The notes under the pieces: model-generated
Database searches by the model: none
What the model was told of the DNA's origin: nothing
The model's input: the letters and a program-made list of their open reading frames with translations, nothing else
Shown: piece after piece, positions 13,864-45,776 of the stretch
Layout: the number at the start of each line of letters is the position of its first letter
Position numbering within the stretch: the stretch's first letter is position 1
Translations under genes and position numbers: made by a program
NCBI RefSeq assembly: GCF_024296685.1
Contig: NZ_CP100763.1
Location: 1,612,001-1,676,000 of the forward strand
DNA: 64,000 nucleotides
Direction of reading: 5' to 3'
DNA from: Natrinema marinum
GTDB lineage: Archaea > Halobacteriota > Halobacteria > Halobacteriales > Natrialbaceae

Positions 13864-13888
13864 CGCCCCCGACTACCCGCCGTCGACC

Positions 13889-13997: not shown

Positions 13998-14027
13998 GCA
14001 CTCGACTCGTTTCCCCACCCACTCGAG

Positions 14028-15014: not shown

Positions 15015-15121
15015 CGGCTGCGAAAACCCGGACTCCCCTGACTCTCCGCGGCGCTGACCGCCGAACGAGTCCCCATCTGTATAGGAACGGAGCTTACACC
15101 GGTCGGTCGGGAAAGAGAGAC

Positions 15122-15574
15122 ATGGCAGATTCTACCCCCGGCGAACCGGTCGAGCTCTTGCTCGTGGAGGACAACCCCGGTGACGTCCGCCTCACCCAGG
15201 AGGCGTTCAAGTCCACGGACAAGAACGTACGGTTTCACGTCGTCACCGACGGGGCGGAGGCGGCACACTACATGCACCGCAGCCAGCGAGGGGAGGTAGA
15301 CAGTCAGCTCGATCTGATCCTGCTCGATTTGAACCTCCCGCGGCTGGACGGATTGACGGTGCTCGAAGCGCTCGACGAAGAACTTGAGCATCCACCGCCG
15401 CCGGTGCTCGTCCTCTCCAGTTCGGACGCCGAAGAGGACATCGTGAAAAGTTACGAGAAGAACGCGAACGCGTATCTGACGAAACCGACTGGACCGATCG
15501 AGTTCGACTCGATGGCCCAGGCCATCGAAGACTTTTGGATCGAGACGGCGCGCCATCCGCCTGCACCCGCGTAA
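15122..15574 (+). CDS. Stand-alone response regulator receiver protein
   Basis: 150 residues, a single receiver domain: ELLLVEDNPGDVRLTQEAF with the acidic pair, LILLDLNLPRLDG with the phospho-acceptor Asp, LVLSSSDAEEDI for the Thr/Ser position, and YLTKPTG with the conserved Lys. The form (VEDNPGD, long alpha4 loop) resembles Rcp1-type regulators, which have no output domain and act by protein contact or phosphorelay. No kinase is adjacent; the nearest is at 21641. The ATG at 15122 is chosen over an upstream frame that overlaps the GT4 stop. Confidence 0.9.
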   Translation: MADSTPGEPVELLLVEDNPGDVRLTQEAFKSTDKNVRFHVVTDGAEAAHYMHRSQRGEVDSQLDLILLDLNLPRLDGLTVLEALDEELEHPPPPVLVLSSSDAEEDIVKSYEKNANAYLTKPTGPIEFDSMAQAIEDFWIETARHPPAPA

Positions 15575-15676
15575 GCTCGGTACCTGCCGATCCGAGGGGG
15601 CGTCGACACGAAGAGGAACCGCGAAGTATCACCGCCTGTCTGCGCTGGAACGGGCGGGATCGGCGACGGTCGAGGA

Positions 15677-18713: not shown

Positions 18714-18738
18714 CTGCCCGAAAAGGGGCTGGCTGCGT

Positions 18739-18748
18739 GCTTTGTTAT
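18739..18748 (-). promoter_or_regulatory. ATAACAAA motif, Gfo/Idh operon promoter
   Basis: On the minus strand ATAACAAAGC starts 35 and ends 26 bases before the operon's first ATG, the typical core-promoter distance for a leaderless haloarchaeal transcript. Confidence 0.65.
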
Positions 18749-18825
18749 CGTCGCCGTACCGTCACGCGGCGGCGAGTAGCGCCACCATTCGGGAGACGGC
18801 GGCCCGTCAGCCGCCGCACCGACCG

Positions 18826-19770
18826 TCAGCTCCAGGTCGGCGTCGCCTGCTCGCTAACGGTCGTGGGTCCCGCCGTCCGACGTGCGACAGCTGCCATCGT
18901 CTCGACGGTGAGGTCGGTCGCGGAGCGTCGGCGCTCGAGGTGCGAGAGGATCGCTCGCATGCGCCGGTCGTCCCGCTCGTGCGTGAGGTTGTTCGGATGC
19001 AGCCACATGTGAAAGAGCCCGTCGGTGCGCGCCGCCTCGTCGATCCCGCGGCGGGCCAGGACGACCATCGGATCCTCCCAGATCGACTCCGCGACGGTCC
19101 GCGCTCGCCCCTCGAACCCGAAGAGGAACATCGAGGCCGGGACGTTGACCAACCCGTGCTCGTCGACGGTCGGCTCGACCAGCATCGACCGGTCGCGGAT
19201 CGTCGAGTCGAAGACGCCGCGGACGCCGTCTCGCGTCGGCGATCGACCCCGGTAGGCGGTGAGGCCCTGCTCGGCCAGCACGTCGCGGTGGCCGATATCG
19301 TTGCGCGGGTAGATGAACGAGTCGATCGACTGCCCCCAGTCGGCCGCGATCTCGATGCTTCGCTCGAGTTCGGCGACGGCCAGTTGGCGGTCCGTCTCCG
19401 GGCGGCCGAACAGGACGTGCGAGAAGGAGTGGCTCGCGAGTTCGTGGTCGGCGTCGGACTCGAGGATGCCCGAGACGAGATCGCGGCCGAACCGGAGATC
19501 CTCTCGGTCCGCCCAGTCGGTTCGCTCGCGCTCGAACCAGCCCTCGGGTGCCGGATGCTTGGTGTGTACGCCGTCGCAGTCCTCGAGCATGAGGTGGCCG
19601 ACGACCGCCCACGTCGCCGGTACGTCGAACTCTGCTAACAACTCGAGCATCGAGTTCCAGCCCCGACGGCCGGATTCGATCCGTTCGGCCGGCGGCTCGG
19701 GGAGGTCGTGAAAGCCCCACCCGAGTTCGGCGTCGAGCGAGATTACGACGCTGCCCACGAATCCCACCAC
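18826..19770 (-). CDS. Polysaccharide deacetylase family protein
   Basis: 314 residues, NodB-like fold. VISLDAELGWGFHD gives the metal and catalytic Asp. ELASHSFSHVLFG provides the H-x3-H metal ligands (about 140). FHMWLHPNNL near the C-terminus matches the last catalytic His. It would remove N- or O-acetyl groups from a glycan. No signal peptide is visible, so it may act on cytoplasmic lipid-linked sugars. The start is weak: GTG at 19770 or 19758; an ATG at 19787 is out of frame and opens a 14-codon ORF that overlaps the gene start. Confidence 0.85.
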   Translation of the reverse strand: MVGFVGSVVISLDAELGWGFHDLPEPPAERIESGRRGWNSMLELLAEFDVPATWAVVGHLMLEDCDGVHTKHPAPEGWFERERTDWADREDLRFGRDLVSGILESDADHELASHSFSHVLFGRPETDRQLAVAELERSIEIAADWGQSIDSFIYPRNDIGHRDVLAEQGLTAYRGRSPTRDGVRGVFDSTIRDRSMLVEPTVDEHGLVNVPASMFLFGFEGRARTVAESIWEDPMVVLARRGIDEAARTDGLFHMWLHPNNLTHERDDRRMRAILSHLERRRSATDLTVETMAAVARRTAGPTTVSEQATPTWS

Positions 19771-25491: not shown

Positions 25492-26799
25492 CTACCGGTC
25501 GGAACGGACGAGTCGCAGTCCTGTCTTCGCCGTCTTCCAGGCCGGATAGGCGGTGTTGTAGACGCTGGTGGGCGCGTTCCGCGCCCCGGCACGGAGGAGT
25601 CGGTGGGTAAGCGGCGGACCGGACGTCGAGATCAGTTCGCCCAGATCTGCGTTCTCGAGCCACTCGAAGAACGCCGTCTCGGCCGGGGTCGCCGGCTCGG
25701 TCTCGCGCGCGCGGTCACGAATATCCGCCCACATGTGGCGCTCGTCCTGTCCGAGCACCCAGTCGCCGCGCTCCAAGGAGCGCCGGAGGTCGCGGTAGTC
25801 GGCGTCTGAGAACGGGTAGCCGTGCTGGGCCGGCTCGAGGCCGGCCAGCCGGAGGCCAACGGCGGTGCGGTAGCACTTCTCGCACTCGCCGCAGTTGCCG
25901 TCCATCCGGTCGTTGCAGGTCTGTAGCTGCAGGTTCGGGTCCTCCTCGCGGACGTAGTCGGCGATGACGTCCAGGCGCTCCTGTCTGGTGAGGTCGTAGG
26001 AGTCGTGGTGACACTGCGTGCCGGCCCACCGGACGTGATCGTCGATATCGGGTCTCGAGCCCCACTCGAGGTCGATCCCGTCCCAATGGGTCGCGGCGAC
26101 GTAGAGGTCCTCCATCCCGCGCGCGTAGGCCACCGGCGCGCAGAGCCCGAGGAGGCCGAGGCCGTGGCCCACGGAGCTGTACCAGCCGCCGTCGACGTAG
26201 CGCTTGTAGTGGGCCAACAGCATGGGATGGTCGAGGAAGGAGAGCATGTTCGACTCGACGAAGGCGGTCTCGCAGCCGTGATCGTCGGCGAAGCTCGAAA
26301 CGCGCGTCCGGAGGGCGTCCCACTTCCCGTCGTCGGCCGCGTCCGGCGTGATCGTCCAGCCCCGGATACTGATCAGCGTCGGCGACGCCTCGCGGTGGCG
26401 GACGTACGAACACGTCGAGTCGACGCCACCGGTGAACAGCAGGCCGCTCTCGTCGCCCGACTCGGGGTCGGGATCGATCGTCCGGCGCGCGTAGAGGGTG
26501 CCGCCCTCGAGGAAGTCGTGCATCTCGCACAGCGATGCCTTCACATCTTCGAGCGCCCGAGCGAACGTCGCGTCGACCTCGTCGACGTAGATATCGGCCC
26601 CGTTGGCCCACGCGACCGGACAGACCTGCGCGAGGACCGGGATCGCCAGAACGCCGTCGGGCACGTCCGCAATCGGCACGTCGTACTCGGTTCGAAACTG
26701 TTCGTCGGTGAAGAACCGCTCGAGGTCGCTCGAGGCGCGGATCGAACACTCGAGGGTGCCGTCGTCGGTGGAGAGGTGGTCGATGAGTATCGATGACAT
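25492..26799 (-). CDS. PP-loop ATP-utilising protein (ExsB/QueC-like) with Cys cluster
   Basis: 435 residues. An N-terminal domain (about 1-120) precedes LLFTGGVDSTCSYVRH, a PP-loop (SGGxDS-type) that adenylates a substrate. RMDGNCGECEKCYRTAVGLR near residue 300 is a zinc-binding cluster like that of QueC-type enzymes. The C-terminal 110 residues are unassigned. It does not look like true QueC (about 220 residues). It sits beside glycan genes, so modification of a sugar or surface molecule is possible but speculative. The gene at 27053 is divergent; I see no ATAACAAA copy on this side. Confidence 0.75.
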   Translation of the reverse strand: MSSILIDHLSTDDGTLECSIRASSDLERFFTDEQFRTEYDVPIADVPDGVLAIPVLAQVCPVAWANGADIYVDEVDATFARALEDVKASLCEMHDFLEGGTLYARRTIDPDPESGDESGLLFTGGVDSTCSYVRHREASPTLISIRGWTITPDAADDGKWDALRTRVSSFADDHGCETAFVESNMLSFLDHPMLLAHYKRYVDGGWYSSVGHGLGLLGLCAPVAYARGMEDLYVAATHWDGIDLEWGSRPDIDDHVRWAGTQCHHDSYDLTRQERLDVIADYVREEDPNLQLQTCNDRMDGNCGECEKCYRTAVGLRLAGLEPAQHGYPFSDADYRDLRRSLERGDWVLGQDERHMWADIRDRARETEPATPAETAFFEWLENADLGELISTSGPPLTHRLLRAGARNAPTSVYNTAYPAWKTAKTGLRLVRSDR

Positions 26800-26973
26800 A
26801 GGTGGCGTGTGGGTTGATCGATCGGACCGACCACTACCCGCTACAAAAATCATCAGAACCGTTGATCGATCACGAAAGGAGAAATCAACCGATAGCTGAC
26901 TATATGGACGGCATAGGGACGGCATAGATCGGCTACAGCCGCGCTACGATCTGCTTTCGACGGTAGGAGCTGT

Positions 26974-27011: not shown

Positions 27012-27056
27012 ATGCATGTCGGGATGGACCCGGAGCGATCCGGTGAGCGGCCATGA
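27012..27056 (+). CDS. Candidate 14-codon upstream ORF before the membrane protein gene
   Basis: Encodes MHVGMDPERSGERP and ends in TGA overlapping the main ATG as ATGA. Its ATG is 29 bases beyond the end of the promoter motif, the place where leaderless transcription would begin. A GGTGAG just before the main ATG could support re-initiation. Confidence 0.4.
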   Translation: MHVGMDPERSGERP

Positions 27057-28843
27057 AACGATCGACGCTGAACGCGACGGTCGCAGTCGGGTTCGTCGCC
27101 GTCGCGATCGCGCTCCTCGTCGCGCGGGCGAACCCGGCGACGGCCTACGAGTCGTCCGTGTACGCGGGCACGCCGACGACCGCCTGGCTCGGGTTCGCGC
27201 TCGCGCTCGCGATCGCCGTCGGCACGTCACTCACTTGCCGAGGCCGCCAGCAGGGACTCGGCATCGGCCTCGGCGGGTTTACCGTCACGGCCATCGCGAG
27301 CCTCCCGGTGATCCGGAACTACTACTTCGCCGGGATGGGCGACGCGCTCAGCCATCTGGGGTGGACGCGTGACATCGTCGCCGGCACCACCGCACCCCAC
27401 GAGCTGTTCTATCCGGGATTGCACTCGATCGCGTCGACCCTACACTTCCTCGGCGGCGTATCGGTCGAGCGCGCCCTTCTCGTCGCGATGGTCGTTTTGT
27501 TCGTCCCGTTCGTGATCTTCGTCCCGCTCGTCGTTCGCGATATCGGTGGCGGCGGGCTGGCGGTCGGGCTCGCCGCGATCGTCTCCTGGATCGTGCTGCC
27601 CGTCAACAACATCGCGACCTTCATGGCCGTCCACACGAACTCGAACGCCCTGTTCGTCGTGCCCCCGGTCGTCTTCGCGGTCGTTGCTTACCTCCGGCGG
27701 CGGTCAACGATCGAGCGACTCCCCTTCGGCGTCTCCCCGTTCAGCGCGCTCATCTTCCTGACCGGGTTGGCGCTCCTGTTGATCCACCCCCAGCAGATGT
27801 TCAACGTCGTCGTCTTCATCGGCGCGATCAGCGCCGTCCAGTTCCTCGCGCGCCGACGCTACGACGATCACCCGATGCTCGAGCACCCGACGACCTACGT
27901 CCACACGATCTCACTGGGCGGGCTGTTCGCCCTCTGGGCGCTCGGCAACGAGCGATTCAGGCGGGCCGCCGTCGCCCTCGCTACCGGCTTGCTCTCGGCG
28001 GATATCGGCGGCAGCGCGCAGGTCAACCAGCAAGGATCGTCGTTGACCGAGATCGGCGGGAGTCTCTCCGAGATCTTCGTAAAGATGTTCCTCGACAAGG
28101 CGATCGTCGCCCTCGTCGTCGGCCTGTTCATTCTGGTCGTCTGGCTCGGTCGCTCGAGCCTCGACGCGGAAGCCAAGTCGTACGTGAACTACGTCGCACT
28201 CGCGCTGTTCCCGCTGTTCGGTATGTTCCTCGTCTACTTCCTCGGGACGCCGAAGATGGCGTTCCGCCAGATGGGGTTCATCTACGTCCTCGTAACGATC
28301 CTCGCGGGGGTCGCCCTGGCCCAGTTCGTCGGCGGACTCTCGAAGACGATTTCGACGCCCGGCGCGAACGCGGTGACGGCGCTCGTCTTGGGCGCCTGTC
28401 TCGTGTTGGGACTGATGACGATGTTCTCGTCACCGCTGATCTACAGATCGAGCCAGCACGTGACCGAGAGCATGATGAGCGGCTACGAAGACGGGCTGGA
28501 ACACGGAGCGGAGGGCGTCCCGTACGCGGGCATGGGATACGACCCCTACCGGTACGATCACGGTATCAACGGCCTCGCGGACGGGGACACGCTCAGCGGA
28601 GCGACGACGGCGACCGGGTCCGTCAACGCCACCGTGTTCTCGGCCGGCAACTACAGCGGGGCCTATCCCACCGACGAGTACTACTTCGTCGTCACGGAGT
28701 GGGACAGGACGAGAGAGTTGCGGGTCTACGAGGAGCTCAACTACGACGCAGCCGCAGTCGAGGGGCTCGAGACCGAGCCGACCGTGAACAAGGTGATCTC
28801 GAACGACGAGTTCACGATGTACGCGGTCGACAGCGAGCCGTAG
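27053..28843 (+). CDS. Polytopic membrane protein of unknown function (GT-C-like layout)
   Basis: 596 residues with roughly 11-13 predicted membrane helices, then a hydrophilic C-terminal domain (about 470-596). The first long loop holds YYFAGMGDALSHLGWTRDI, an acidic/His loop like that of GT-C glycosyltransferases, and a helix pair contains LLIHPQQMFNVVVF. I do not recognise a specific family. Candidate roles are polymerase, flippase-associated ligase or GT-C transferase acting on lipid-linked sugars outside the membrane. The promoter motif ties it to the surface-polymer genes. Translation may be coupled to a 14-codon ORF. Confidence 0.7.
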   Translation: MKRSTLNATVAVGFVAVAIALLVARANPATAYESSVYAGTPTTAWLGFALALAIAVGTSLTCRGRQQGLGIGLGGFTVTAIASLPVIRNYYFAGMGDALSHLGWTRDIVAGTTAPHELFYPGLHSIASTLHFLGGVSVERALLVAMVVLFVPFVIFVPLVVRDIGGGGLAVGLAAIVSWIVLPVNNIATFMAVHTNSNALFVVPPVVFAVVAYLRRRSTIERLPFGVSPFSALIFLTGLALLLIHPQQMFNVVVFIGAISAVQFLARRRYDDHPMLEHPTTYVHTISLGGLFALWALGNERFRRAAVALATGLLSADIGGSAQVNQQGSSLTEIGGSLSEIFVKMFLDKAIVALVVGLFILVVWLGRSSLDAEAKSYVNYVALALFPLFGMFLVYFLGTPKMAFRQMGFIYVLVTILAGVALAQFVGGLSKTISTPGANAVTALVLGACLVLGLMTMFSSPLIYRSSQHVTESMMSGYEDGLEHGAEGVPYAGMGYDPYRYDHGINGLADGDTLSGATTATGSVNATVFSAGNYSGAYPTDEYYFVVTEWDRTRELRVYEELNYDAAAVEGLETEPTVNKVISNDEFTMYAVDSEP

Positions 28844-29267: not shown

Positions 29268-29277
29268 AAAGTTTATG
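29268..29277 (+). promoter_or_regulatory. Shared core promoter of beta-helix gene 1
   Basis: AAAGTTTATG ends 27 bases before the ATG. The same ten bases at the same distance occur before the other two beta-helix genes. GTCTGTAAATTT (29238-29249) lies 30 bases upstream, as before gene 2. Confidence 0.7.
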
Positions 29278-29303
29278 AGCGTAAGACGGAGTTACGGAGA
29301 TGT

Positions 29304-30254
29304 ATGGCGCAGAACCCCCGTACGTCCGAGACGGATTCCACTCCGACTACAGGTCGTAACTCTGGATTAAGCCGCCGTAACTACGTTCGCTCGCTCGCCG
29401 CGGTGGCGACGGCGACGACCGCACTCGGCGGCGCCGGAGCAGTCGCGGCCCAGGACGACTACGAGGTCATCGAAGCCCAGGGACAGACGATCACCATCGG
29501 CGCAGGCGAGACCTGGGAGAACAAGCTGATCGACATGACGACCGGTGCGGACATCGTCATCACCGCCCGCGACACCGACTGGACGATCCGAAACGTCGGT
29601 TTCAAAGGCGAGAACACGTCCGGCACCGGTACCGCCACCTTCGGCGTCGCCGACGTGAGCGGCGGGACGAGCACCGTCGAGAACGTCTACCTCGGTGACG
29701 GCTCGAGCACGGGCAACAGTAACCCGAACGGGCACGGCCAGACCGCCTTCTGGGTCGCCCCGGACCACTCCGGGCACATCGACTACAAAAACGTCAACAT
29801 CCAGAACTTCGCGGACAACGCGATCTACGGCTCCGCGCCTGGCAGCAAGGGAGGTGGCACTGTCCATATCGACAGCAGCTACGCCGCGAACTGTTACGTC
29901 TCGCACTTCCGACTGGCCACGGAAGGCAGCAAGGTCACGAACTCGAGTATCTACGTCGACGGGAGCGAGGGCTACGTCGGCCGCGGTATCTGGGCGTGGG
30001 CTCCCGGGACGATCGAAGTCGAGAGCTGCCAGATCGCGATGAACGGGCAGAACAACGCCATCGTCGCCGGCGCGAACGGGAAACCGACGGAAGTCGTCGT
30101 CACGGAAAGCGACTACGATGACACAGCAGGTATCGCCGAACACGCCGGCTCGAACGTCGAACTCGGCACCGATGTCGGTACGAACCCCGAGCCCTTCATC
30201 CCGGACGGCGTCCCAACCTCGCCGGAAGAGGCCGCATCGGGCGGCTCGAACTGA
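29304..30254 (+). CDS. Tat-exported right-handed beta-helix protein 1 (no C-terminal modules)
   Basis: 316 residues. The twin-arginine signal LSRRNYVRSLAAVATATTAL (RR at 24-25) ends near AVAA/QDD (about 50). The rest is a parallel beta-helix pattern: YEVIEAQGQTITIGAGETWE, then TIRNVGFKG and VENVYLGDG-type coils. It stops right after IPDGVPTSPEEAASGGSN. The two paralogues continue past this point with repeated modules. Beta-helix surface proteins often bind or cleave polysaccharides; catalytic residues are not evident. Secretion is expected as a folded protein. Its promoter is shared with the two paralogues. Confidence 0.85.
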   Translation: MAQNPRTSETDSTPTTGRNSGLSRRNYVRSLAAVATATTALGGAGAVAAQDDYEVIEAQGQTITIGAGETWENKLIDMTTGADIVITARDTDWTIRNVGFKGENTSGTGTATFGVADVSGGTSTVENVYLGDGSSTGNSNPNGHGQTAFWVAPDHSGHIDYKNVNIQNFADNAIYGSAPGSKGGGTVHIDSSYAANCYVSHFRLATEGSKVTNSSIYVDGSEGYVGRGIWAWAPGTIEVESCQIAMNGQNNAIVAGANGKPTEVVVTESDYDDTAGIAEHAGSNVELGTDVGTNPEPFIPDGVPTSPEEAASGGSN

Positions 30255-30591
30255 TCCCCGCTGCCGCGACCGCTCGCCGACCCGGTTCCCGCTGACGCTC
30301 CCCTCCACCGATTCCCCTCCGATCGGTCTTCCCCGACCGATCCCCGCTGACGCACTCCTCCACCACGCCGAACCCGGCCGGTCCTCCACCGGCCCTCCAC
30401 CGACCCTCCGACTCGCCGCCGCCCCGGTCGCGTTTTTCGGTTTCGATGCGCACGCGTACGCGTTTCGTCTGTTTTCGACTCGAGCGGATCGTTCACGCGC
30501 CCTCGAGCGCGACGTCGGTCCCCCTCGACTGCATCGACCACTGGACCCCGACGACACCGACGAACAGCGGCTCGGTCGGGTTCCGGGGCCG

Positions 30592-30668
30592 GTAATACCG
30601 AATTACTCGGGATTGAAACCTGTGACTTCGTGCTTCCGAGGGTTCTCGGGCGGTAATTCTGTATTACC
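30592..30668 (+). promoter_or_regulatory. Pair of GTAAT-N5-ATTAC sites
   Basis: GTAATaccgaATTAC (30592-30606) and GTAATtctgtATTAC (30653-30667) are 61 bases apart. The second is preceded by CTCGGGCG, resembling the left half of the composite element at 28981. They lie about 170-250 bases upstream of beta-helix gene 2. Confidence 0.5.
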
Positions 30669-30804
30669 AAACTGAACTCGCGCCCCGAGCTGGCCGCGGA
30701 GAGAATTTTATATGCGTCTTGTTGTTCCCAAAATAGTCATTCAATATTATACCATTCGTACCGATTATAGATACAGTCTGTAAATTTTAGGTACAGAAAT
30801 GCGG

Positions 30805-30814
30805 AAAGTTTATG
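30805..30814 (+). promoter_or_regulatory. Shared core promoter of beta-helix gene 2
   Basis: AAAGTTTATG ends 27 bases before the ATG at 30841. AGTCTGTAAATTT (30775-30787) lies 30 bases upstream, as before gene 1. Confidence 0.7.
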
Positions 30815-30840
30815 CCGTTAGTATCTAATTACCCGATTGC

Positions 30841-32640
30841 ATGGCACGCGACTCTTCGGTACTGGATGACGAGTCGACCGCCTCCGACGACGGGGAGGCG
30901 GCCGACGACGGCGGTAACGACGGATTACTGCACCGGCGATCGTACATGAAGCTGGCCGGTGCGACGACCGCGGCGGCGACGCTCACGGGAGCCGCGAGCG
31001 CCGACGACGACTACGACGTGATCGAGGCCCGCGGGCAGACGATCCGCGTCGGCCGCGGCGAGACGTTCGAGAACAAACTGATCGACCTCACGACGGGCGC
31101 GGGTTTCCTGATCTACGTCGAGGGAGCGAACTCGACGATCCGCAATATCGGATTCAAGGGCCTCTACCGCGGGGACTCGTTCATGATTTCGATCGACACC
31201 GGCCCGGGAGACATCCTCGTCGAGAACGTCTACCTCGGCGACGGCGCGACGAAGGAGGGCTCGAGTTTCGTTCACGGTCCCGGTGCGGTCTTCATGCACC
31301 GGGGCAGTCAGGCGGACATCACCTTCCGTAACTGTAACGTCCAGGGTTACCCGAACAACGGCTTTTACTGTTCCAACACGCCCTACGGCGGCAGCGTCCG
31401 CTTCGAGAACTGTTTCGGCAAGAACAACGGCGTCACGACCTTCCGGTGTGGCAGCGCAGAAGACGAGATCGTCAACTGCGTCGCCTACAACGACAACACG
31501 GATTACGGGCGCGGCTACGGCGGCTACGGCGAGACCAACGGCCGCCCCGTCTGGGTCTGGAACGGCGGGACCGTGACGATCCGCGACTCGCACTTCGCGG
31601 ACGGGCCGTACCCCTACGCGCTCGTCGCCGGCGCGAACGGCTCGCCCGGTAGCGTCGACTTCCGGAGCGGCGGCTACCGCGGCCAGATCCATCGGGCCAG
31701 TGGCTCGACGGTGAGCATCGGGAACGACGTCTCGAGCGATCCCGACCTCTCGATCCCCGACGGCGTCCCGACCTCGCCGGAGGAGGCCGCATCGAGCGGC
31801 TCCGGCGCCACCGGCACCAACCAATCGACCGACGACGAGAGCGTTCAGCTCCCCAACGTCCTCCTCGTGGACGGCAGTCCGGAGGACGCGACCCGATACG
31901 AGTTCAGCGTCGACGGCGCGATCGAGCGTTCGAACTACGAGGGTGCGTCGATCGACGACGAGGATGCGATCGACGGCTCGCTCGTGCAGGGCAGCGTCGC
32001 CGACTGGAAGGACGCCTTCCGGTTCGACGGCGAACTGACGAATCTCACCGTCGACGGCCCGGGAACGGTCTCCGTCAACGGCGAGCAGGTCGACCCCGAC
32101 GATTACGGCCAACAACTACCCCACGTGCTCGAGGTCGCGAGTCGGGGCACGCCAACGAGCTACGAAATCACGGTCGACGGCGCGGTCGAACTCGTCTCCG
32201 ACGACGCGCCGACCGCCGACGCGACGACTGTCTCGGGGTCGACCGTCCAGAGTTCGCTCACCGACGGAAGCCAGACGTTCCGGTTCTCGGGGGCGCTCAC
32301 CGACGTGACGTTCACCGACGGCGAGGCGGACGTGACCGTCGACGGCGAGCCGATCGATCCGAGCGAGTACGGCGACCACAAGATGCTGCCCCACGCGATA
32401 GTGGTCGACGGCGTCGAGGCCGACGGGCCGAGCGCCTACTCCTTCGAGGTCGACGGGACGGTCGTGCAGTCGAACTACGACGGCGCGTCGATCGACACCG
32501 AGGACGTGATCGACGGGACGGCCGTCCGCGGCGCGGTCGGCAACTGGCTCGACGCCTACTGGTTCGACGGCGACATCACGGACTTCCACCTGTGCGGTGA
32601 CGCCACGGTCGACGTGCAGTACAACGCGCGCGACCAGTAA
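30841..32640 (+). CDS. Tat-exported beta-helix protein 2 with three C-terminal modules
   Basis: 599 residues. An acidic N-terminus leads to the Tat signal LLHRRSYMKLAGATTAAATL (RR at 32-33). Residues about 57-320 are a parallel beta-helix like that of gene 1 (DYDVIEARGQTIRVGRGETF, IRNIGFKG, VENVYLGDG). After IPDGVPTSPEEAASSGS come three modules of about 88 residues (starting near 337, 426 and 515). Each has a V-DG start, a FRF-G-LT-V core and an end like VNGEQVDPDDYG. The modules look like beta-rich binding domains; no known family is assigned. It is convergent with the third paralogue. Confidence 0.85.
   Translation: MARDSSVLDDESTASDDGEAADDGGNDGLLHRRSYMKLAGATTAAATLTGAASADDDYDVIEARGQTIRVGRGETFENKLIDLTTGAGFLIYVEGANSTIRNIGFKGLYRGDSFMISIDTGPGDILVENVYLGDGATKEGSSFVHGPGAVFMHRGSQADITFRNCNVQGYPNNGFYCSNTPYGGSVRFENCFGKNNGVTTFRCGSAEDEIVNCVAYNDNTDYGRGYGGYGETNGRPVWVWNGGTVTIRDSHFADGPYPYALVAGANGSPGSVDFRSGGYRGQIHRASGSTVSIGNDVSSDPDLSIPDGVPTSPEEAASSGSGATGTNQSTDDESVQLPNVLLVDGSPEDATRYEFSVDGAIERSNYEGASIDDEDAIDGSLVQGSVADWKDAFRFDGELTNLTVDGPGTVSVNGEQVDPDDYGQQLPHVLEVASRGTPTSYEITVDGAVELVSDDAPTADATTVSGSTVQSSLTDGSQTFRFSGALTDVTFTDGEADVTVDGEPIDPSEYGDHKMLPHAIVVDGVEADGPSAYSFEVDGTVVQSNYDGASIDTEDVIDGTAVRGAVGNWLDAYWFDGDITDFHLCGDATVDVQYNARDQ
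31849..32637 (+). repeat. Three tandem modules in beta-helix protein 2
   Basis: In-frame units of about 267 bases start near 31849, 32116 and 32383. They share DGEL/ALT-DVT-type cores but have diverged in DNA. Confidence 0.75.
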
Positions 32641-32962
32641 CGCGACTCGGTTTTCTCGTTCCTCGTCGGACGGCACAACACAGCGCTCTTCGCGACGACC
32701 TCATCCGCGCACAATCGTAAGTTCGCGAAGCGGTATCCGAGATCTCGTCCGCTACGGCAGTCACAGACGAACCGACACCCAGTTGGGCGATATCGAACGG
32801 CTTCGTCGCGGGACGCTCGAGTCGGTCGGAGGGCTCGATCGGCCGTCAACCGAGCCATCCGCAGCCGACGCTCCGTACGGACCGTCGAGTCGTAACGGAC
32901 CAACCCCGACCGAATGCGATCGAAAGACGGAGTGAAGCGGAGTCCGGGTGCGAGTGAAAACG
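32641..32962. other. Convergent intergenic region
   Basis: Lies between the stops of beta-helix genes 2 and 3. T-rich tracts (cggttttctcgtt near 32648, and gcgttttcact on the minus strand near 32960) could terminate the two transcripts. No gene seen. Confidence 0.5.
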
Positions 32963-34990
32963 CTAGACGTTGTACTCGACATCGACGGTCGCGTCGCCGC
33001 GCAGGCGGAAGTCCGTGATGTCGCCGTCGAACCAGTAGGCATCGAGTTCGTCGTCGACGCTGCCGCTGACGGCCGTGCCCTCGACCGTGTCGCCGGGATC
33101 GACCGAGGCGTCTCGGTAGCTCGCGGTGACGACCTCGCCGTCGACGGCGAAGGAGTACGACGACTGCCCGTCCGTGCCCGAGCCGTCGATCACGATGGCG
33201 TTCGGGAGGCGCTTCTGGCCGTTGTAGTCATCGGGATCGATCCGCTGGTCGTCGAGGTAGACGTGCGCCGTGCCCTCGCGGAAGGTCACGTCGGTCAGCG
33301 CACCGGAGAACCGGAACCGCTGTGCGTCGCGTTCGATCGACCCCTCGACGGTGGTGTCGGAGAGCACGGTGGCGTACTCCTCGGAGGCGTCACCCGCGAC
33401 CGTATCGATCGTGCCGTCGACCGTGAGCTCGTAGCTGGCGTTCGAGCCGTCGCCGACCAGCGTCAGCACGTGTGGCTGTTCGTCGCCGTAGTCGGCGGGG
33501 TCGACCTGCTCGCCGTTGACGTAGACGCGAGCGTCGCCGTCGAGCGTGAGGTCCGTCAACTCGCCGCTGAACTTGAAGCCGTCGCGCCAGCCGGCCACGC
33601 TCCCGGTGATGATCCCGCCGTCGACGGTGTCCTCGCCGTCGATCGTGGCTCCCTTCACGGTCGCCTTCTGGGCGGCCCCGGAGACCGCAAACTCGTAGCG
33701 CGTCCCGCCCGAGGTGCCGACCCCGTCGACCAGCAATGTGTTCTCGAGGGTCGGCTGATCGCCGTTGTACTGGTCGGGGTCGATCGTCTCGCCGTTGACC
33801 TCGACGTGGGCCGAGCCCTGACGGAACGCGACCTCGTGGAGGTCGCCGGCGAACCGGTAGCCGTCGACGTGGGACGTGTTCGTCACCCAGCCGGTCGCGC
33901 TCGTGGCGTCGATCGAGTCGTAGCTCTCGAGCGAGCCGACGTTCGGATCGTCGACGAGTTCGTCGGTCGCCTCGACGTAGTACTCCGTCGGCTCGCCGGT
34001 GCCCGTCACCGTGAGGGTGTTCGCTGGGAGGTCCGACTCGCCGTCGCCGCTCGAGGGCGAATCGGACGTCGATCCGGCGCTCGCGGCCGCTTCGGGGGAG
34101 GTCGGGACCCCGTCGGGGACGAAATGCTCGGGGCTACCGTGAGTGCCGGAGCCGTCGTCCGTGTGGACCTGATCCATGGAGACGGACGGGCCGTTGTGCG
34201 TGACGACGCCACCGCCGGTCCCGTTCGTAATGACGTGGGTGTTTTCGATCGTGGCACCGCCGCCGTAGTCGCCCGCCCAGACCCAGATGCCGCGGCTCGC
34301 GGCCCGAGTGCCGCTCTTGTAGACGACCGAGTTCGAGATCGTACAGCCGTTATCGCCGATGCGGAGCCCCGTGTGATGGGTGTCGTAGGTGTAACAGCTG
34401 TCGATGTGGATCGAGCCGCCGTTCCCGTTGTACGCGGGCGCGGAGCCGTAAATTCCGTTGCAACCGGCGTGGCCGAAGTTGACGTTCCGGACCTCGAGAC
34501 GGCCGCTGTGGTCGGGGTCGACCCACATCAACAGCGGCCGCTCGTTCGAGGGCCGGTCGGGGTCGCCCCGGCCCCAGTAGATGTTCTCGAGCGTGGAGGT
34601 GTTACCGCCGGTGTCGGCGATGCCGAAGACAGTCCCGCTGTTCGGGGCCGTGCCGGTCGCACCGAGGGTGCCGCGAAACCCGATATTTCGAATGGTCCAG
34701 TTCGTTCCCTTGGCGATGATGGTGATGGTCCCGCCATTGCCGAGATCGATCAGCTTGTTCTCCCAGGTCTGGCCGGAACTGACGCGGATCGTCTGCCCGC
34801 GGGCCTCGATCACGTCGTAGTCGCCGGCGGCGCTCGCCGGGCCGGTGCTGACGCCCGCAGCGATCGCCGTCACCCCGGCCAGTTTCAGGTACGACCGTCG
34901 ATCGATCGTTCCGCCGTCAGTTCGTTCGTCGTCACTCGTGGTCGGTTCGACGGGACGGTCACCGTCCCGTACCGGTTCGTCGCGTGCCAT
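32963..34990 (-). CDS. Tat-exported beta-helix protein 3 with four C-terminal modules
   Basis: 675 residues. The Tat signal DRRSYLKLAGVTAIAAGVST (RR at 31-32) is followed by the same opening as its paralogues (GDYDVIEARGQTIRVSSGQT). The beta-helix runs to IPDGVPTSPEAAASAGS-like sequence near residue 300 (here VPDGVPTSP). Four modules start near 322, 413, 503 and 592; the last ends AYWFDGDITDFRLRGDATVD, almost as in protein 2. The module number (0, 3, 4 in the three paralogues) shows growth by duplication. A surface or secreted carbohydrate-interacting role is inferred, not shown. Confidence 0.85.
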   Translation of the reverse strand: MARDEPVRDGDRPVEPTTSDDERTDGGTIDRRSYLKLAGVTAIAAGVSTGPASAAGDYDVIEARGQTIRVSSGQTWENKLIDLGNGGTITIIAKGTNWTIRNIGFRGTLGATGTAPNSGTVFGIADTGGNTSTLENIYWGRGDPDRPSNERPLLMWVDPDHSGRLEVRNVNFGHAGCNGIYGSAPAYNGNGGSIHIDSCYTYDTHHTGLRIGDNGCTISNSVVYKSGTRAASRGIWVWAGDYGGGATIENTHVITNGTGGGVVTHNGPSVSMDQVHTDDGSGTHGSPEHFVPDGVPTSPEAAASAGSTSDSPSSGDGESDLPANTLTVTGTGEPTEYYVEATDELVDDPNVGSLESYDSIDATSATGWVTNTSHVDGYRFAGDLHEVAFRQGSAHVEVNGETIDPDQYNGDQPTLENTLLVDGVGTSGGTRYEFAVSGAAQKATVKGATIDGEDTVDGGIITGSVAGWRDGFKFSGELTDLTLDGDARVYVNGEQVDPADYGDEQPHVLTLVGDGSNASYELTVDGTIDTVAGDASEEYATVLSDTTVEGSIERDAQRFRFSGALTDVTFREGTAHVYLDDQRIDPDDYNGQKRLPNAIVIDGSGTDGQSSYSFAVDGEVVTASYRDASVDPGDTVEGTAVSGSVDDELDAYWFDGDITDFRLRGDATVDVEYNV
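32966..34024 (-). repeat. Four tandem modules in beta-helix protein 3
   Basis: In-frame units of about 265-270 bases on the minus strand, each ending in a D-P-x-x-Y turn except the last. Module 4 is closest to module 3 of the neighbouring paralogue. Confidence 0.75.
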
Positions 34991-35310
34991 GCGACCTGAG
35001 AGAGAACACTACCGAACCATAAACTTTCCTCCCTCGTTATCAGTAAGATTTCGTGATTATAATTATATCGTGGTATATTGTTCACTTTCTCATGGATTTT
35101 CTATCACGGGATCTTATATACAAAATCGGGAGACTTCAGGGTGAGGCACTATCTCTGCGCCAATTATGATACTGATAGAAAGATAGTTTCGAATTTTCTA
35201 CTGTCAGAACGGAGGGACAGTACGTCGATGTACGATTCGTGACCTGATCCGTTTCGTGGTCGACAGGATATCCGAACACTCAGGTGACAACGTTCGTTCC
35301 GACGGGACAG
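34991..35310. other. AT-rich upstream region of beta-helix gene 3
   Basis: Holds the gene's promoter and AT-rich sequence (35030-35200), unusual for this genome. No gene seen. The asparagine-synthase-like gene ends at 35311. Confidence 0.55.
35018..35027 (-). promoter_or_regulatory. Shared core promoter of beta-helix gene 3
   Basis: On the minus strand AAAGTTTATG ends 28 bases before the ATG, as in genes 1 and 2. The GTCTGTAAATTT element of genes 1 and 2 is absent here. Confidence 0.65.
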
Positions 35311-37137
35311 TCAGCCGAATACGGTGTCACGACGCGACTCGAGGACGCTCTGCGAGGAGTGGACGTCGTCGATGAACGAGGTGAGCGCGAAGAGCCGGTA
35401 AACGGACGTGCGGTCGTGGTCCGCGTGGGCGTCGAGGAACGCGTGGAGTTCGTCCGTCGAGAGCACGTCGTCGACGGCCTCGCACTGCTCGACCTGCGTG
35501 CGAATGCAGTCGACCGTATCCGGCCGGAGCTGCGAGCCCGTCTCGAGGCCGTTGATCGACTTGACGATCGGTCGGACCGCGTCGAACACGCGCGGATACC
35601 GCGAGAGCAGATCGTCGACGAACGCCACGGCTTCGTGACGGGTAGAGGCAACGGGCACGCCGTAGTCGGGGTGGGGGAGCGCCGCGGCGGCCGGCTCGAG
35701 TTCCGAGAGGAAGGCGCGGTACAGATTGTACCGGGCCTTCTGGTCGGGCGGGCAGTTCATCGCGTACCGGAAGAAATCGATCGAGTAGAACGGGGTCGTG
35801 CTCCAGAAAAAGAAGCGGTTGCGGTCCTCGCCCTCGAACAGGAAGTTGACGCCCCGCTCGTAGACGAGGAAGTGGACGTACTTCGAGGCGGGGTCGGACT
35901 CGGGGTACATGCGAAGCCGGTCGCGGACGCTACGCCGAATCGCCTCGGCCGACAGCCCGGTAATTCGTGCGACCTGCTCGAGCGAGAGGAACGAGTTCTC
36001 GTCGATGACGTAGTCGACCAGGGCCGCCTCGTCGGCGAGCGGCCGCGCGGGGGTCAGATCGGGGAGAACCTTGTCGCCGCCGTCGCCGGTGACGTACGTG
36101 AGGCCGGCGTCGTACTCCTCGCGGAGCTGGCGGAAGAACTCGAGTATGAAGGAGGTCAGGAGTCCGATCTGGCCGTTTTTCGTTTTGACGATCCGGTCGA
36201 GGTCCGACCCGTTCGGCGGCCCGATCTCGTAGCGTTGCCAGTCGACCTCGAGTTCGTTGGCCAGCTCCCGAGCGATCTCGACGTCCGACGGGGGAACGAA
36301 CTCGTCGGAGGCCATCGTGGCCGCTGTCGTCGGGATCCCCTCGGCGTTGTAGCCGGCGAGCACCGACCGAGAGTCGAGGCCGCCGCTCAGCGAAACGACA
36401 TCGTGACTACCCTGTCCCGACCGCTTTCGACAGGCTCGTTCGAATCGATCGACGAGTTCGCTGGCGTTTCGCGATCGGCTCCGATCGGCGTACGCCGGCT
36501 CCCCGAAGTCGAAGCGGTGCAGCGCCGTCTCGGTGACTGCACCGCGGTCCGGGTTGACGGTGAGTTTCGTCCCCGGGCGCAGTCGGTTGGCCCCCTCGAC
36601 GAGCGTTCGATCGCCCAGCGAGTAGCCAAAGAGGAGACACTGGGCGACGCCCATCGGATCGAACCCCTCGATCGGCGCTTCGTTGATCAGGTAGCGTAGC
36701 TCCCGCGAGAACAGGAACGACTCCCCGTCGTGGAAGTAGTACGTCGGCAGCCGGGCGAGCGGATCGTTGAGCAGCCCTAGCCGACCGCTGTCCTTGTCGA
36801 CGGCGACCAGCAGGAACTCGCCGTCGGTCTCGAGCAACCACTCCGTCAGGAACGCTTCGTCGCCGTCGGCCGCGAGGACATCCGCCGCGACCTCGAGCAG
36901 TTCGCGCTCGAGTACCGCGTCGGGCCGGTCGTAGATCCGGCCCTCGAGGCAGACCCAGCGGTCCTCGTCTTCGACGACGCGGATCGGATACTCCGGGTAG
37001 GCCGTCGTGCCGATCGCAGCGGACGACGACTCGTGGACGATCTCGCGCTCGTAGCGCTCCGTGTGAACGAGCGGCTCGAGCGACGCGGCGAACGTCCCAT
37101 CGTCGGACCTCGTCGTTCGGCCGGTGACACCAACCAT
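35311..37137 (-). CDS. Asparagine-synthase-like protein without the N-terminal Cys nucleophile
   Basis: 608 residues from this start. A class-II glutamine amidotransferase-like domain fills about 1-200 (LLNDPLARLPTYYFHDGESF). The synthetase domain has VVSLSGGLDSRSVLAGYNAE (PP-loop) and TYVTGDGGDKVLPD. The protein begins MVGVTGRTT: position 2 is Val, not the catalytic Cys of true AsnB, so glutamine hydrolysis is unlikely. Related enzymes in polysaccharide loci amidate uronic acids. An in-frame ATG at 37344 sits 20-28 bases from a TATA-like tract, so a 677-residue form is possible, but its extra 69 residues are Arg/Ser/Pro-rich. Confidence 0.8.
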   Translation of the reverse strand: MVGVTGRTTRSDDGTFAASLEPLVHTERYEREIVHESSSAAIGTTAYPEYPIRVVEDEDRWVCLEGRIYDRPDAVLERELLEVAADVLAADGDEAFLTEWLLETDGEFLLVAVDKDSGRLGLLNDPLARLPTYYFHDGESFLFSRELRYLINEAPIEGFDPMGVAQCLLFGYSLGDRTLVEGANRLRPGTKLTVNPDRGAVTETALHRFDFGEPAYADRSRSRNASELVDRFERACRKRSGQGSHDVVSLSGGLDSRSVLAGYNAEGIPTTAATMASDEFVPPSDVEIARELANELEVDWQRYEIGPPNGSDLDRIVKTKNGQIGLLTSFILEFFRQLREEYDAGLTYVTGDGGDKVLPDLTPARPLADEAALVDYVIDENSFLSLEQVARITGLSAEAIRRSVRDRLRMYPESDPASKYVHFLVYERGVNFLFEGEDRNRFFFWSTTPFYSIDFFRYAMNCPPDQKARYNLYRAFLSELEPAAAALPHPDYGVPVASTRHEAVAFVDDLLSRYPRVFDAVRPIVKSINGLETGSQLRPDTVDCIRTQVEQCEAVDDVLSTDELHAFLDAHADHDRTSVYRLFALTSFIDDVHSSQSVLESRRDTVFG

Positions 37138-37516
37138 GTCAGTACACGAGTGAGTAACCCGCATTGTAATGTCGGCGTTTACCGCCCCCAGTCGAGGGCT
37201 ACCGGCTTCGGGCCGCGACGCTGTGTCGTAACCGGTCGCTGCCGTCAGCGAGGGTGACGGCCGCGTAAGAAGGAGGCTCCCGCGCCTGGAACAGCTGCTG
37301 GCACGCGACTGTTCCGGTACTGGATGACGGTCGTCGGGAGCCATTCGACAGTATGGATTCAGGTAATAAAAACCCTTCTCAGGAGCCGGATAAGTGAGCG
37401 AACGTGAGATCCGAGACGTACCGGCGGTGGAGGATTGGTACAGATCAGTCGCTCGAGGCGGCTGATTGTCGCAAGAACGGTCGACGCGGACGACGATCAG
37501 TGCCGCCGTCGAAGGC
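37138..37516. other. Upstream region of the asparagine-synthase-like gene
   Basis: A TATA-like taataaaaa (37364-37372, reading leftward on the minus strand) implies either a start at ATG 37344 or a leader of about 200 bases. No other gene seen. Confidence 0.5.
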
Positions 37517-38113: not shown

Positions 38114-38862
38114 TATGCAGCGCCTCCGGTCGGAGCGTTGCCATTCGAGTTCGCCGATCCCTGAGCCCGGTAGCCGGTATCACCGGAATCTCGGCACGAC
38201 GGCGACCGCTGTACGTTCGAACGGCGAGTCGAAATCACGATTGACACACCAGGTTGTACACCAACAGAGATACTCTTAAACACGACCACGTTTCGCACCG
38301 TCTGCAAAGCGGGTACGGAGCGACTTCCGGACGGGGGAGCGGCGAGGTCGTTTCGTCGCTCTCTCGACCGGTTCCTGCCGGTCGGACGGCCGCGCGGTAT
38401 CGATCGATTGTGCGAACGTACCGATGGCGTACGTCGGTTCCACCCCGGGTGACCGGACGCCGTCGAGCGTCGGCGGACTGCGTAACAAGACGGCACTGGT
38501 ACCCACAGTTCGGTGGAACCGGTATAAAGTCGAACGACAGTTCACACGCGAAAGAGCGATTTACCCAATGAACGGACGATTTACGTCGTCGAGACGCCAC
38601 AACGATCGGCACCCTTCATGTGGCGTGTGGACATTGACCACGATGGGGCGAAGCGACCGTCGACCGGACGCTTCACCCTGACGCGACCGATGGGACACGG
38701 TCTCGACGCGGCCGCCGCGGATGCTCGCTCGAGGCACGCGGCGGTCGAGTCGTTCGATTTTCTGGGCTCGATTCTCGCGCGAGCAACGCCACAGTAAGTC
38801 GGTGTTTCCCGCGAAACCATGTGAACCCCTTACAGTGCCGGCACGGTTTCGTCCGGCTACTG
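38114..38862. other. Largest gene-free stretch of the window
   Basis: 749 bases between the DUF7344 gene and tfb. ORFs on both strands have atypical composition. A TATA-like ggtataaag (38520-38528) faces right and would serve a 37-codon ORF from 38568 or an RNA; neither is convincing. A non-coding RNA cannot be ruled out. Confidence 0.45.
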
Positions 38863-39822
38863 ATGACGCGGTCTATCATCGATCAACAGAGCAGCGAATC
38901 ACAGTCAGAGAAGGGTGAGACTGGCCTGTGTCCCGACTGCGAGACCGACACGATCGTCCACGATCCGGACCGCGGCGAGCAGGTCTGCGAGGACTGTGGC
39001 CTGGTCCTAAGCGAAGATCCCATCGATTACGGGCCGGAATGGCGGGCATTCAACGCCCAGGAGCACGACGAGCTGTCGCGTGTCGGTGCTCCCCTGACCC
39101 AGTCGATGCACGACCGGGGGTTAACGACCACCATCGACTGGCGGAACAAGGACGCGAACGGACACTCGATGTCGGCCGACAAGCACGGCCAGCTCCATCG
39201 CCTGCGCGTCTGGCAGGAGCGGATCCGAACGAAGAACGCGGGCGAACGAAACCTCAAGTACGCCCTCTCCGAGATCGACCGGATGGTCAGCGCGCTGGGC
39301 GTTCCCAAGCCCGTCAAAGAGACGGCGAGCGTCATCTATCGCCAGGCGCTCGAGCAGGACCTCATCCGCGGGCGCTCGATCGAGGGCGTCGCGACCAGCG
39401 CGCTCTACACCGCCTGCCGAAAGGAAGGGATTCCGCGCAGCTTAGAGGAAGTAACGTCCGTCTCCCGCGTCGAGCAACGCGAGATCGGTCGGACCTACCG
39501 CTACATCGCGGACGAACTCGGCATCAACTTAGAGCCAACGAACCCCCGGCAGTTCGTCCCTCGCTTTTGCTCGGAGCTAGACGTCAACAAAGACGTGGAA
39601 ACCAAAGCCATCGAGATCATCGATCGAACCACCGAACAGGGGCTCCACTCCGGCAAGTCACCGACCGGCTTCGCCGCCGCCGCCATCTACGCCGCCGGTC
39701 TCCTCTGTGACGAGACCATCCCACAGCGGGCCGTCGCCGACACCGCCCAGACGACCGTCGTCACCGTTCGCAACCGGTATCGAGAACAGCTCGAGGCGAT
39801 CGACCAGCAGCCCGCTACATGA
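38863..39822 (+). CDS. tfb: Transcription initiation factor TFB
   Basis: 319 residues. The N-terminal zinc ribbon CPDCETDTIVHDPDRGEQVC ending in EDCG is followed by the B-reader region (YGPEWRAFNAQEHD, TTTIDWRNKD). Two cyclin folds follow (LKYALSEIDRMVSALGVPKP and FVPRFCSELDVNKDVETKAI). TFB binds TBP and the BRE and positions RNA polymerase. Haloarchaea carry several TFBs thought to choose among promoter classes, which matters here because the window shows two unusual promoter boxes. The ATG at 38863 is preferred over a GTG at 38821. Confidence 0.95.
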   Translation: MTRSIIDQQSSESQSEKGETGLCPDCETDTIVHDPDRGEQVCEDCGLVLSEDPIDYGPEWRAFNAQEHDELSRVGAPLTQSMHDRGLTTTIDWRNKDANGHSMSADKHGQLHRLRVWQERIRTKNAGERNLKYALSEIDRMVSALGVPKPVKETASVIYRQALEQDLIRGRSIEGVATSALYTACRKEGIPRSLEEVTSVSRVEQREIGRTYRYIADELGINLEPTNPRQFVPRFCSELDVNKDVETKAIEIIDRTTEQGLHSGKSPTGFAAAAIYAAGLLCDETIPQRAVADTAQTTVVTVRNRYREQLEAIDQQPAT

Positions 39823-44651: not shown

Positions 44652-45776
44652 TCAACGGTCGAGTCGATCGCCAACGGCCTCGATCGCCGACGTCTCGATC
44701 CCCTGGTGGACGGGGAGCGTGACGACTTCGTCCGCGAGCCGGTTGGCGGTCTCGTAGGCCTCGTTTCCGTGTACCGACTCGCGGAGGATCGGCCAGGAGT
44801 GAGCGCCGACGACGCCACAATCCGCGAGCGTCGACTGGAAGGCCGCCGGGTCGTCCGCGCGGACGGGGAACTCGTAGGGACTGATTCCTTTCGGAAGCCG
44901 GTCGTAGAGCGCAGTCACGTCGTCTCGGTCGTCGAGCACGCGCTGCCAGGTCCGGAAGTTCTCCCGCCGAGTCGCTCGAATCGCGTCCGGCTCCGCGGCG
45001 TCGGCGACGGCCTTCGAGAGCCTCGACATCGGAACTTTCGCGGCTTCGTACCGCGCTTCGGGGTCGACGCTCGCGGGGTCGTCCGCGCCGTTGGCCAGGA
45101 ACGCCTCGACAGACCGATGGAGCGACTGGCTCGCCCCGAGGACGGTTTCGGCGACAGACGACGCCACGAACCGGCAGTCGGTGGCCGCGATCCGATCGGC
45201 GGGGCCGGCGAGCGCTGACGGTTCGAACGCCTCGCGGACCTCGTCGTCGGCACAGTAGAGGATGGCGCCGTCTGGGACCGGGAGCAGCTTTCGCAGCGTC
45301 GTGATCCCGAGATCGCCGACGGTCCCGAGCAGCGTTCCTTCGTCGACGCTCAGGGGCGCGTGCGCGTTGTCGTCGACGTGGTAACAGTCGTGTGTGTCGG
45401 CCAGAGACGCGATCCGCTCGAGGCCGGGTTGGGGGAAGCCGAAGTAGTTGACCGAGACGATCGCGGCGGTGTCGTCGTCGAGCCGCCGCTCGAGGTCGTC
45501 GAAGTCGGGCGCGAGCGTGGGTTCGATCGCGTAGAAGCGCGACTCGAGGCCGAGTTCGTGGAACGGTTCGACGACGGCGGGCGAGAGATAGGCCGGGACG
45601 AGGACGTTCTCGCCGGGCTCGACGAGCCCGGAGAGGCCGTCCCGGAGCGCGACCTTGCCGGCGCCGTAGTACGTGTACGCGACATCGGGGGCGTGCTGGT
45701 CGACGAACGAGCCGATACCGGGTGCCCCCGACCGCGAGACCGACGCGTCGAACACGGAGGGGGTAGCGGTGATCAT
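44652..45776 (-). CDS. DegT/DnrJ/EryC1-like PLP-dependent enzyme
   Basis: 374 residues. The fold-type I pattern is present: GAGKVALRDGLSGLVEPGEN, NVLVPAYLSPAVVEPFHELG, the cofactor Asp in YHVDDNAHAPLS, and TTLRKLLPVPDGAILYC, where the Lys is the likely PLP attachment site. The usual SFxxTK motif is replaced by TLRKLLP, so it may be a distant member with another substrate. It lies divergent to the phosphatase-superfamily gene at 46009 and fits a second glycan locus. The ATG at 45776 is chosen because the longer ORF has poor composition. The target sugar is unknown. Confidence 0.82.
   Translation of the reverse strand: MITATPSVFDASVSRSGAPGIGSFVDQHAPDVAYTYYGAGKVALRDGLSGLVEPGENVLVPAYLSPAVVEPFHELGLESRFYAIEPTLAPDFDDLERRLDDDTAAIVSVNYFGFPQPGLERIASLADTHDCYHVDDNAHAPLSVDEGTLLGTVGDLGITTLRKLLPVPDGAILYCADDEVREAFEPSALAGPADRIAATDCRFVASSVAETVLGASQSLHRSVEAFLANGADDPASVDPEARYEAAKVPMSRLSKAVADAAEPDAIRATRRENFRTWQRVLDDRDDVTALYDRLPKGISPYEFPVRADDPAAFQSTLADCGVVGAHSWPILRESVHGNEAYETANRLADEVVTLPVHQGIETSAIEAVGDRLDR

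Follow-up and report, generated by a model that had tools for sequence, protein, structure and literature searches.

What do three neighbouring genes have in common whose products open alike and end in zero, three or four copies of a module that could not be assigned to a family? The question is posed by the window studied here, a stretch of 64,000 nucleotides from the haloarchaeon Natrinema marinum (contig NZ_CP100763.1, positions 1,612,001 to 1,676,000 of the forward strand), which contains three open reading frames (ORFs) for beta-helix type proteins that we call proteins 1, 2 and 3. The reading that we favour, giving it about equal weight for and against, is that they are glycan-modifying or glycan-binding proteins of an exopolysaccharide island, exported through the twin-arginine translocation (Tat) pathway, held at the surface by an array of modules and expressed as one regulon, probably under a linked paralogue of transcription initiation factor IIB (TFB). 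The genes and their parts are as follows, with lengths in amino acids (aa).

29304-30254, plus strand: protein 1, ORF of 316 aa; Tat signal and beta-helix type domain, without a module
30841-32640, plus strand: protein 2, ORF of 599 aa; Tat signal, beta-helix type domain and modules B-C-D
31843-32112, plus strand: protein 2 module B, residues 335-424
32113-32376, plus strand: protein 2 module C, residues 425-512
32377-32637, plus strand: protein 2 module D (terminal), residues 513-599
32963-34990, minus strand: protein 3, ORF of 675 aa; Tat signal, beta-helix and modules A-B-C-D (model m1da2e266b5fb)
34070-34825, minus strand: right-handed beta-helix of protein 3, residues 56-307, by VIA-align on the AlphaFold2 model
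33761-34033, minus strand: protein 3 module A (extra, most divergent), residues 320-410
33482-33760, minus strand: protein 3 module B, residues 411-503, modelled alone
33218-33481, minus strand: protein 3 module C, residues 504-591
32966-33217, minus strand: protein 3 module D (terminal), residues 592-675

The beta-helix proteins

A first-pass annotation of the locus had described three exported paralogues with one type of signal, a common opening and a common hinge, and these features are all present. The Tat signals read RRNYVRS, RRSYMKL and RRSYLKL in proteins 1, 2 and 3, respectively, the opening is Y-[ED]-VIEA-[QR]-GQTI, and the hinge PDGVPTSPE, directly after which protein 1 terminates, is followed by three modules in protein 2 and four in protein 3, each 84-93 aa long. 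The annotation did not mention that the gene for protein 3 runs convergent to that for protein 2, on the minus strand. Each signal combines a twin-arginine motif with a hydrophobic stretch and an A-x-A-like end, and the twin arginines are invariant in 30 of 30 aligned sequences, which predicts export of all three proteins; the TIGR01409 (Tat signal) profile scored slightly too low on protein 3 (15.1 versus a cut-off of 16.7). The N-terminal parts are 42-46% identical pairwise. The last modules of proteins 2 and 3, which had been called nearly the same, are indeed the closest pair, yet they share only 63% identity, with 28-57% for the remaining pairs.

An AlphaFold2 prediction of protein 3 from 30 aligned full-length sequences (mean predicted local distance difference test score, pLDDT, 80.6; predicted template modelling score, pTM, 0.45) contains a right-handed beta-helix. 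VIA-align placed this helix closest to the pectate lyase 7xks (Z 19.3, root-mean-square deviation 3.0 over 220 residues), while PL6 alginate lyases scored Z of about 18 and phage tailspikes 16-17; the lyase matches at Z 18-19 span 220-240 residues. The sole Foldseek match of the protein 3 model at E <= 0.001 was WceF (E 4.8e-4), a glycan-biofilm-modifying beta-helix protein. The right-handed parallel beta-helix is common to PL1 pectate and PL6 alginate lyases and tailspike-like proteins such as WceF (Z 16-19), at 5-16% sequence identity in the structural alignments. In contrast to the PL1 and PL6 lyases, proteins 1-3 gave no Pfam or NCBIfam lyase match above cut-off, and proteins 2 and 3 carry a C-terminal module array. 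The Pfam scan of the three proteins had nothing above cut-off, its best row being DUF4957 on protein 2 (E 0.0017, 18.7 of the 30.8 bits set as cut-off), and the NCBIfam scan of the whole proteins gave no match above cut-off either. Positions D82, N102, N136, N178, Y181, R210, R233 and W236, among others, are invariant in the helix across the 30 aligned sequences, and the modelled fold is consistent with the helix being an enzyme.

Protein 1 of the MAQN type was 309-328 aa long in 24 of 24 copies from 24 loci, on which ground we reject that it is a truncated protein 2; judged by its sequence, it is a separate, conserved, module-less partner gene.

An ordered array of an all-beta module

The first-pass annotation could not assign the modules to a family, and in proteins 2 and 3 their stretches matched no Pfam-A family above cut-off. 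A Pfam scan of 50 modules matched five unrelated families, each with a single one of the modules (best E 0.0019), and the module profile found no relative among PDB sequences at E <= 10. The structure prediction that the annotation had proposed gave a confident, all-beta model for module B of protein 3, with nine strands (pLDDT 92.1, pTM 0.83, from 50 aligned modules), to which Foldseek found nothing in PDB at E <= 0.001. The best VIA-align rows were a DUF4425 protein (Z 4.6) and archaeal chitin-binding domains (Z 4.3-4.5), and the list as a whole, with cohesins, TRAP, Pyrococcus and Thermococcus chitin-binding domains and DUF4425 at Z 3-4.6, is at noise level, within the range that the tool terms a common arrangement. 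The module resembles the archaeal chitin-binding domains, small beta-sandwich modules represented by 2cwr and 5dhd, in being small, all-beta and carried on secreted enzymes, but the structural match is of this weak grade and there is no sequence match. Comparison of the module structure with viral models gave none at E <= 0.001, phage records gave no match, and none of seven stretches of viral contigs that fit a pattern was a relative. In the part of the open-licence literature accessible to us no description of the module or its promoter was recognised, which is not proof of absence. Judged by its model, this module, about 88 aa long, is a haloarchaeal accessory domain of all-beta type that has no name in Pfam.

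The module is widespread. A search of other haloarchaea, also proposed by the annotation, was run over 292 genomes of the class with a profile built from the seven modules of proteins 2 and 3, and it matched in 203 genomes and 65 of 77 genera (E <= 1e-5). At the same threshold the genome of N. marinum has 11 module places, seven of them in proteins 2 and 3. In a sample of the phylum, 36 of 294 genomes matched, and all of the matches came from the same genome or from the same genus, family or order. Outside the family of N. marinum the module is joined to beta-helix proteins, GH16, a subtilase, a thioredoxin-like protein and a PKD/CARDB protein, partners that rule out its restriction to beta-helix proteins; one to seven modules were seen per protein, and some modules stand alone. 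Present in about 70% of the sampled haloarchaeal genomes and absent from Pfam, the domain hides the roles of many exported proteins annotated as hypothetical, and a module profile would bring beta-helix, GH16, subtilase, thioredoxin-like and PKD proteins into one group with a probable common location.

The array is also ordered. When 122 modules were placed in a tree, those in last position formed one clade (35 rows, support 100/100) and those second from last another (38 rows, 98/96), the latter including three standalone modules, and the position labels needed 6 changes in total versus 65.9 in shuffles; the tree was built on 92 columns, with the bootstrap incompletely settled and the first modules badly placed. 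The last three modules are thus positional orthologues, both in different genera and when protein 2 is set against protein 3, indicating that the arrays are old and ordered, that B-C-D is an old block common to proteins 2 and 3 and that A is an extra of protein 3. On this clustering by position we reject a recent tandem amplification. The earlier view of a small expanding family has to be given up for that of a module that is widespread in haloarchaea, sits on many unrelated proteins and occurs in positionally conserved arrays.

Moreover, the array is more conserved than the domain it is attached to. Over 406 pairs, modules B, C and D averaged 60, 58 and 64% identity versus 47% for the beta-helix, and over the 280 pairs with helix identity below 50% the values were 58, 53 and 62% versus 37% (29 of 30 rows were compared, the row without modules being dropped). 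We read this difference as that of a constant address on varying effectors.

Several module proteins depart from the architecture of proteins 2 and 3. In the same genome, locus L003 (1498-3324, minus strand) encodes a Tat protein with two modules and a different N-terminal domain, for which there was no Pfam match, and it carries the promoter and start common to proteins 2 and 3; by eye, the gene beside it looks like that of the window's DUF354 protein. Two further places in the genome encode small module proteins without a visible signal:

L006, 1426-1839, minus strand: standalone module protein
L007, start at 1535 on the reverse strand of L105: standalone module protein

Proteins of about 105-140 aa that consist of a single standalone module and have no export signal were seen at L006, L007, L095, L099, L100, L057 and L058, and several of them have the same TATA and start pattern as the exported proteins. 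Two module proteins appear to be split into two frames, at L069 (7983-9585, plus strand; protein 3 type, N. zhouii) and at L098 (7880-9744, plus strand; protein 2 type, N. hispanicum), reflecting either sequencing error or decay. A tblastn search with protein 2 matched 67 plasmid records, the better matches mostly being labelled 'hypothetical protein'.

A frozen start region and a linked TFB

The following features bear on the expression of the three genes.

29268-29308, plus strand: protein 1 TATA box to start codon, with GTA-N9-TAC
30805-30861, plus strand: protein 2 TATA box, start codon and frozen start element ATGGCACGCGA...CGGTA
34970-35027, minus strand: protein 3 TATA box, start codon and frozen start element
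38821-39822, plus strand: TFB paralogue, one of eight in the genome; its linkage to these genes spans several genera

At about 36-38 bases ahead of the ATG, the genes of proteins 1-3 and their relatives have a TATA box, AAAGTTTAT, and the blocks that they have in common reach to and across the start codon. The pattern AARGYTTATN{18,40}ATGGC has six matches in the genome, at proteins 1, 2 and 3, the L003 protein, the L007 standalone protein and an unrelated ORF of 62 aa, and ATGGCACGNGANNNNNCGGTA has exactly four, all of them module genes, with none for the reversed control. The combined pattern was found in 52 of the 71 genomes of the family. Of 30 pattern places that were fetched, 28 begin a module protein by hidden Markov model and one (L131) by eye; the remaining one (L126) begins a module-less beta-helix protein. 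A further conserved block, GTCTGTAAATTTTA, lies at about 30770-30790 (plus strand) in front of protein 2, some 55-75 bases before the ATG; it recurs upstream of the protein 1 and protein 2 types, relatives included, is weaker in protein 3, and is a possible activator site.

The conservation within the coding sequence is one of nucleotides. We counted codons in the 43 ORFs beginning MAR among 52 module ORFs that were left after removal of 20 pattern-selected ORFs and near-copies (the 9 others were excluded), with codons 61 onward of 88 ORFs as background, each preceded by 150 bases or more of fetched sequence, and ORFs identical in the first 60 residues being reduced to one copy. Codon 2 was GCA in 43 of 43, a codon that makes up 11% of the alanine codons later in such genes, codon 3 was CGC in 42 of 43, and the valine of codon 7 was GTA in 28 of 30, compared with 2.8% of later valine codons. 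Across 134 other conserved columns, used as a control, the top codon had a mean frequency of 0.73 (Ala 0.34-0.94, Arg 0.34-0.65); some Val, Asp and Asn columns also reached 1.0, but with the preferred codon. Haloarchaeal starts show a general preference for A/U nearby, according to the accessible part of PMC4983044, which may account for part of this bias and hardly for GTA at codon 7. Distant module starts with alanine at codon 2 have GCA in seven of eight (by eye).

Between the TATA box and the ATG, a GTA-N9-TAC repeat occurred in 22 of 39 upstream regions (ORFs beginning MA[RQK], from sets not chosen by pattern) versus 0.14 in shuffles, and in 5 of 15 regions of distant families, with starts chosen by eye, versus 0.07. 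With N6 spacing the repeat was found in 7 of the 39, and no other spacing tried between 4 and 14 occurred at all. A genome-wide search for the TATA box plus GTA-N9-TAC returned only protein 1 and one unrelated place, with one match for the reversed control, indicating that GTA-N9-TAC alone does not define the set.

The TFB at 38821-39822 scored above cut-off with PF00382 (two stretches), PF08271 and NF001658, in agreement with the zinc ribbon and the two TFIIB repeats that define such a factor. Of the 33 named loci, a protein 1 match above 50% identity is present in 25, and in 24 of those the fetched stretch also includes this TFB; the linked TFBs are 85-95% identical, and the one exception, L096, lies where its contig ends. 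The genome's seven other TFBs share 34-67% identity with it and do not belong to the clade of linked TFBs. It had a match in 62 of 71 family genomes at E <= 1e-150, and, in a tally by hand of the 56 genomes in both surveys (15 of the 71 genomes of the TFB survey belong to that survey alone), a module match at E <= 1e-25 was present in 45 of 49 genomes with this TFB and in none of seven without it. Haloarchaea have multiple-TFB regulatory networks, as the accessible part of PMC4230888 describes; here, likewise, a TFB paralogue of an expanded family is linked to candidate targets, the difference from the networks of that part of the source being a linkage, known from sequence, to one surface-protein island and a start-spanning element. 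The TFB is a candidate regulator of proteins 1-3.

Mechanism, competing explanations and surroundings

If the reading that we favour is right, proteins 1-3 would leave the cell folded, via Tat, and would act on or bind an acidic surface polysaccharide from the surrounding glycan-synthesis island. The ordered array (B-C-D, sometimes with A first) would hold a variable beta-helix at a constant target, most likely a cell-surface glycan or a glycosylated S-layer, with proteins 2 and 3 retained by the array and protein 1 remaining free. Joint expression would be set by transcriptional rather than translational control from a specialised promoter and start, composed of the TATA box, the GTA-N9-TAC repeat and the frozen first codons, probably through the linked TFB. 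Of this reading, the architecture, the modelled helix fold, the distribution and order of the modules, the nucleotide constraint and the TFB linkage are shown, whereas the polysaccharide substrate, the anchoring, the level of control and the regulator are inferred. Several observations weigh against it. A catalytic site and a substrate of proteins 1-3 are presumed, likeness of fold is no proof of function, beta-helices can also bind or merely scaffold, and the conserved module positions are mostly glycine and hydrophobic, without an obvious sugar-binding platform. Surface anchoring leaves the standalone, signal-less and apparently cytosolic modules unexplained. The exact GTA-N9-TAC is absent in proteins 2 and 3, which have imperfect versions, and module genes of distant families mostly lack the exact ATGGCACGCGA start, which only L142 keeps. 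Finally, the genomes in the TFB and module tally are related, making the result an association and not a proof, and this TFB is at most a candidate for binding module-gene promoters.

The evidence also bears on other explanations of the array and of the proteins. The modules could be a passive stalk or spacer that raises the beta-helix through the surface layer without specific binding, an explanation in keeping with tandem arrays that vary from one to seven, with a generic beta fold that has no clear relative and with the linkers rich in Ser, Thr and Asp seen in distant families. We consider it unlikely, since a stalk is expected to diverge faster than a catalytic domain whereas the helix here is less conserved than B, C and D, since every array position retains its own identity across genera and since single modules stand alone. 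Still less probable, in our judgement, is a catabolic role, in which proteins 1-3 would be secreted polysaccharide lyases using external polymers and the module an ordinary binding domain. The likeness of fold to pectate and alginate lyases and the GH16 and beta-helix partners of the module elsewhere would fit such a role, but the neighbourhood is one of glycan synthesis (glycosyltransferases, epimerase, phosphomannomutase and nucleotidyltransferase), and no transporter or uronate catabolism gene was recognised in the scanned ORFs, save an SBF-type transporter.

Concerning the frozen start, a constraint at the RNA level, acting on the translation of near-leaderless mRNAs rather than on the binding of a transcription factor, is possible though rather unlikely. 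The synonymous constraint falls within codons 2-8, the TATA spacing predicts a leader that is very short or absent, and bases -4 to +6 influence haloarchaeal gene expression, according to the accessible part of PMC4574771; yet RNA folding of eight starts (for L105, of the wrong stretch) gave no consistent structure or start-codon hairpin (z -1.5 to +1.7), and the GTA-N9-TAC repeat sits upstream of the expected transcript start. That the common promoter and start are a functionless remnant of whole-gene duplication seems very improbable: proteins 2 and 3, L003 and the standalone protein could conceivably derive from one gene by domain replacement, but alanine and arginine columns of the same genes vary over the ranges given above, whereas codons 2 and 3 stand at 1.0, one of them with a rare codon. 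A bolder form of the favoured reading, which we think doubtful, is that a dedicated TFB acts like a sigma factor on a surface-glycan regulon, the targets being united by the unnamed domain. It would read an extended core promoter made up in part of GTA-N9-TAC around the transcript start and of a downstream element in codons 2-8, and the rare synonymous codons would thereby be fixed. If this TFB does control the frozen promoter, the locus offers a natural test of promoter choice by sequence among archaeal TFB paralogues and of whether archaeal core promoters reach into coding DNA.

The surroundings of the three genes include the following.

11355-19770: glycan synthesis genes (GT2, DUF354, GT4-like, epimerase, DUF362, Gfo/Idh, deacetylase-like)
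25492-26925, minus strand: conserved neighbour with a GGVDST motif, tblastn match in 23 of 33 loci
27053-28843, plus strand: conserved 596-aa neighbour that looks hydrophobic on inspection, matched by tblastn in 29 of 33 loci
35311-37344, minus strand: asparagine-synthase-like protein, tblastn match in 6 of 33 loci

The product of 27053-28843 had no family match in the Pfam and NCBIfam scans, and that of 25492-26925 is presumably PP-loop-like, judging by its GGVDST motif. The region also encodes a phosphomannomutase, a nucleotidyltransferase and a DegT-family aminotransferase, and its deacetylase-like protein has a weak HfsH match. On plasmid pHTUR04 of Haloterrigena turkmenica, the same genes for an epimerase, DUF362, Gfo/Idh, a deacetylase-type protein and a phosphodiesterase adjoin the orthologues of 27053-28843 and of proteins 1 and 2. 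Farther along the window, a tRNA-Gly (tcc), which may contain an intron or be a false call, was called at 44696-44795 on the plus strand, at 100 bases longer than usual.

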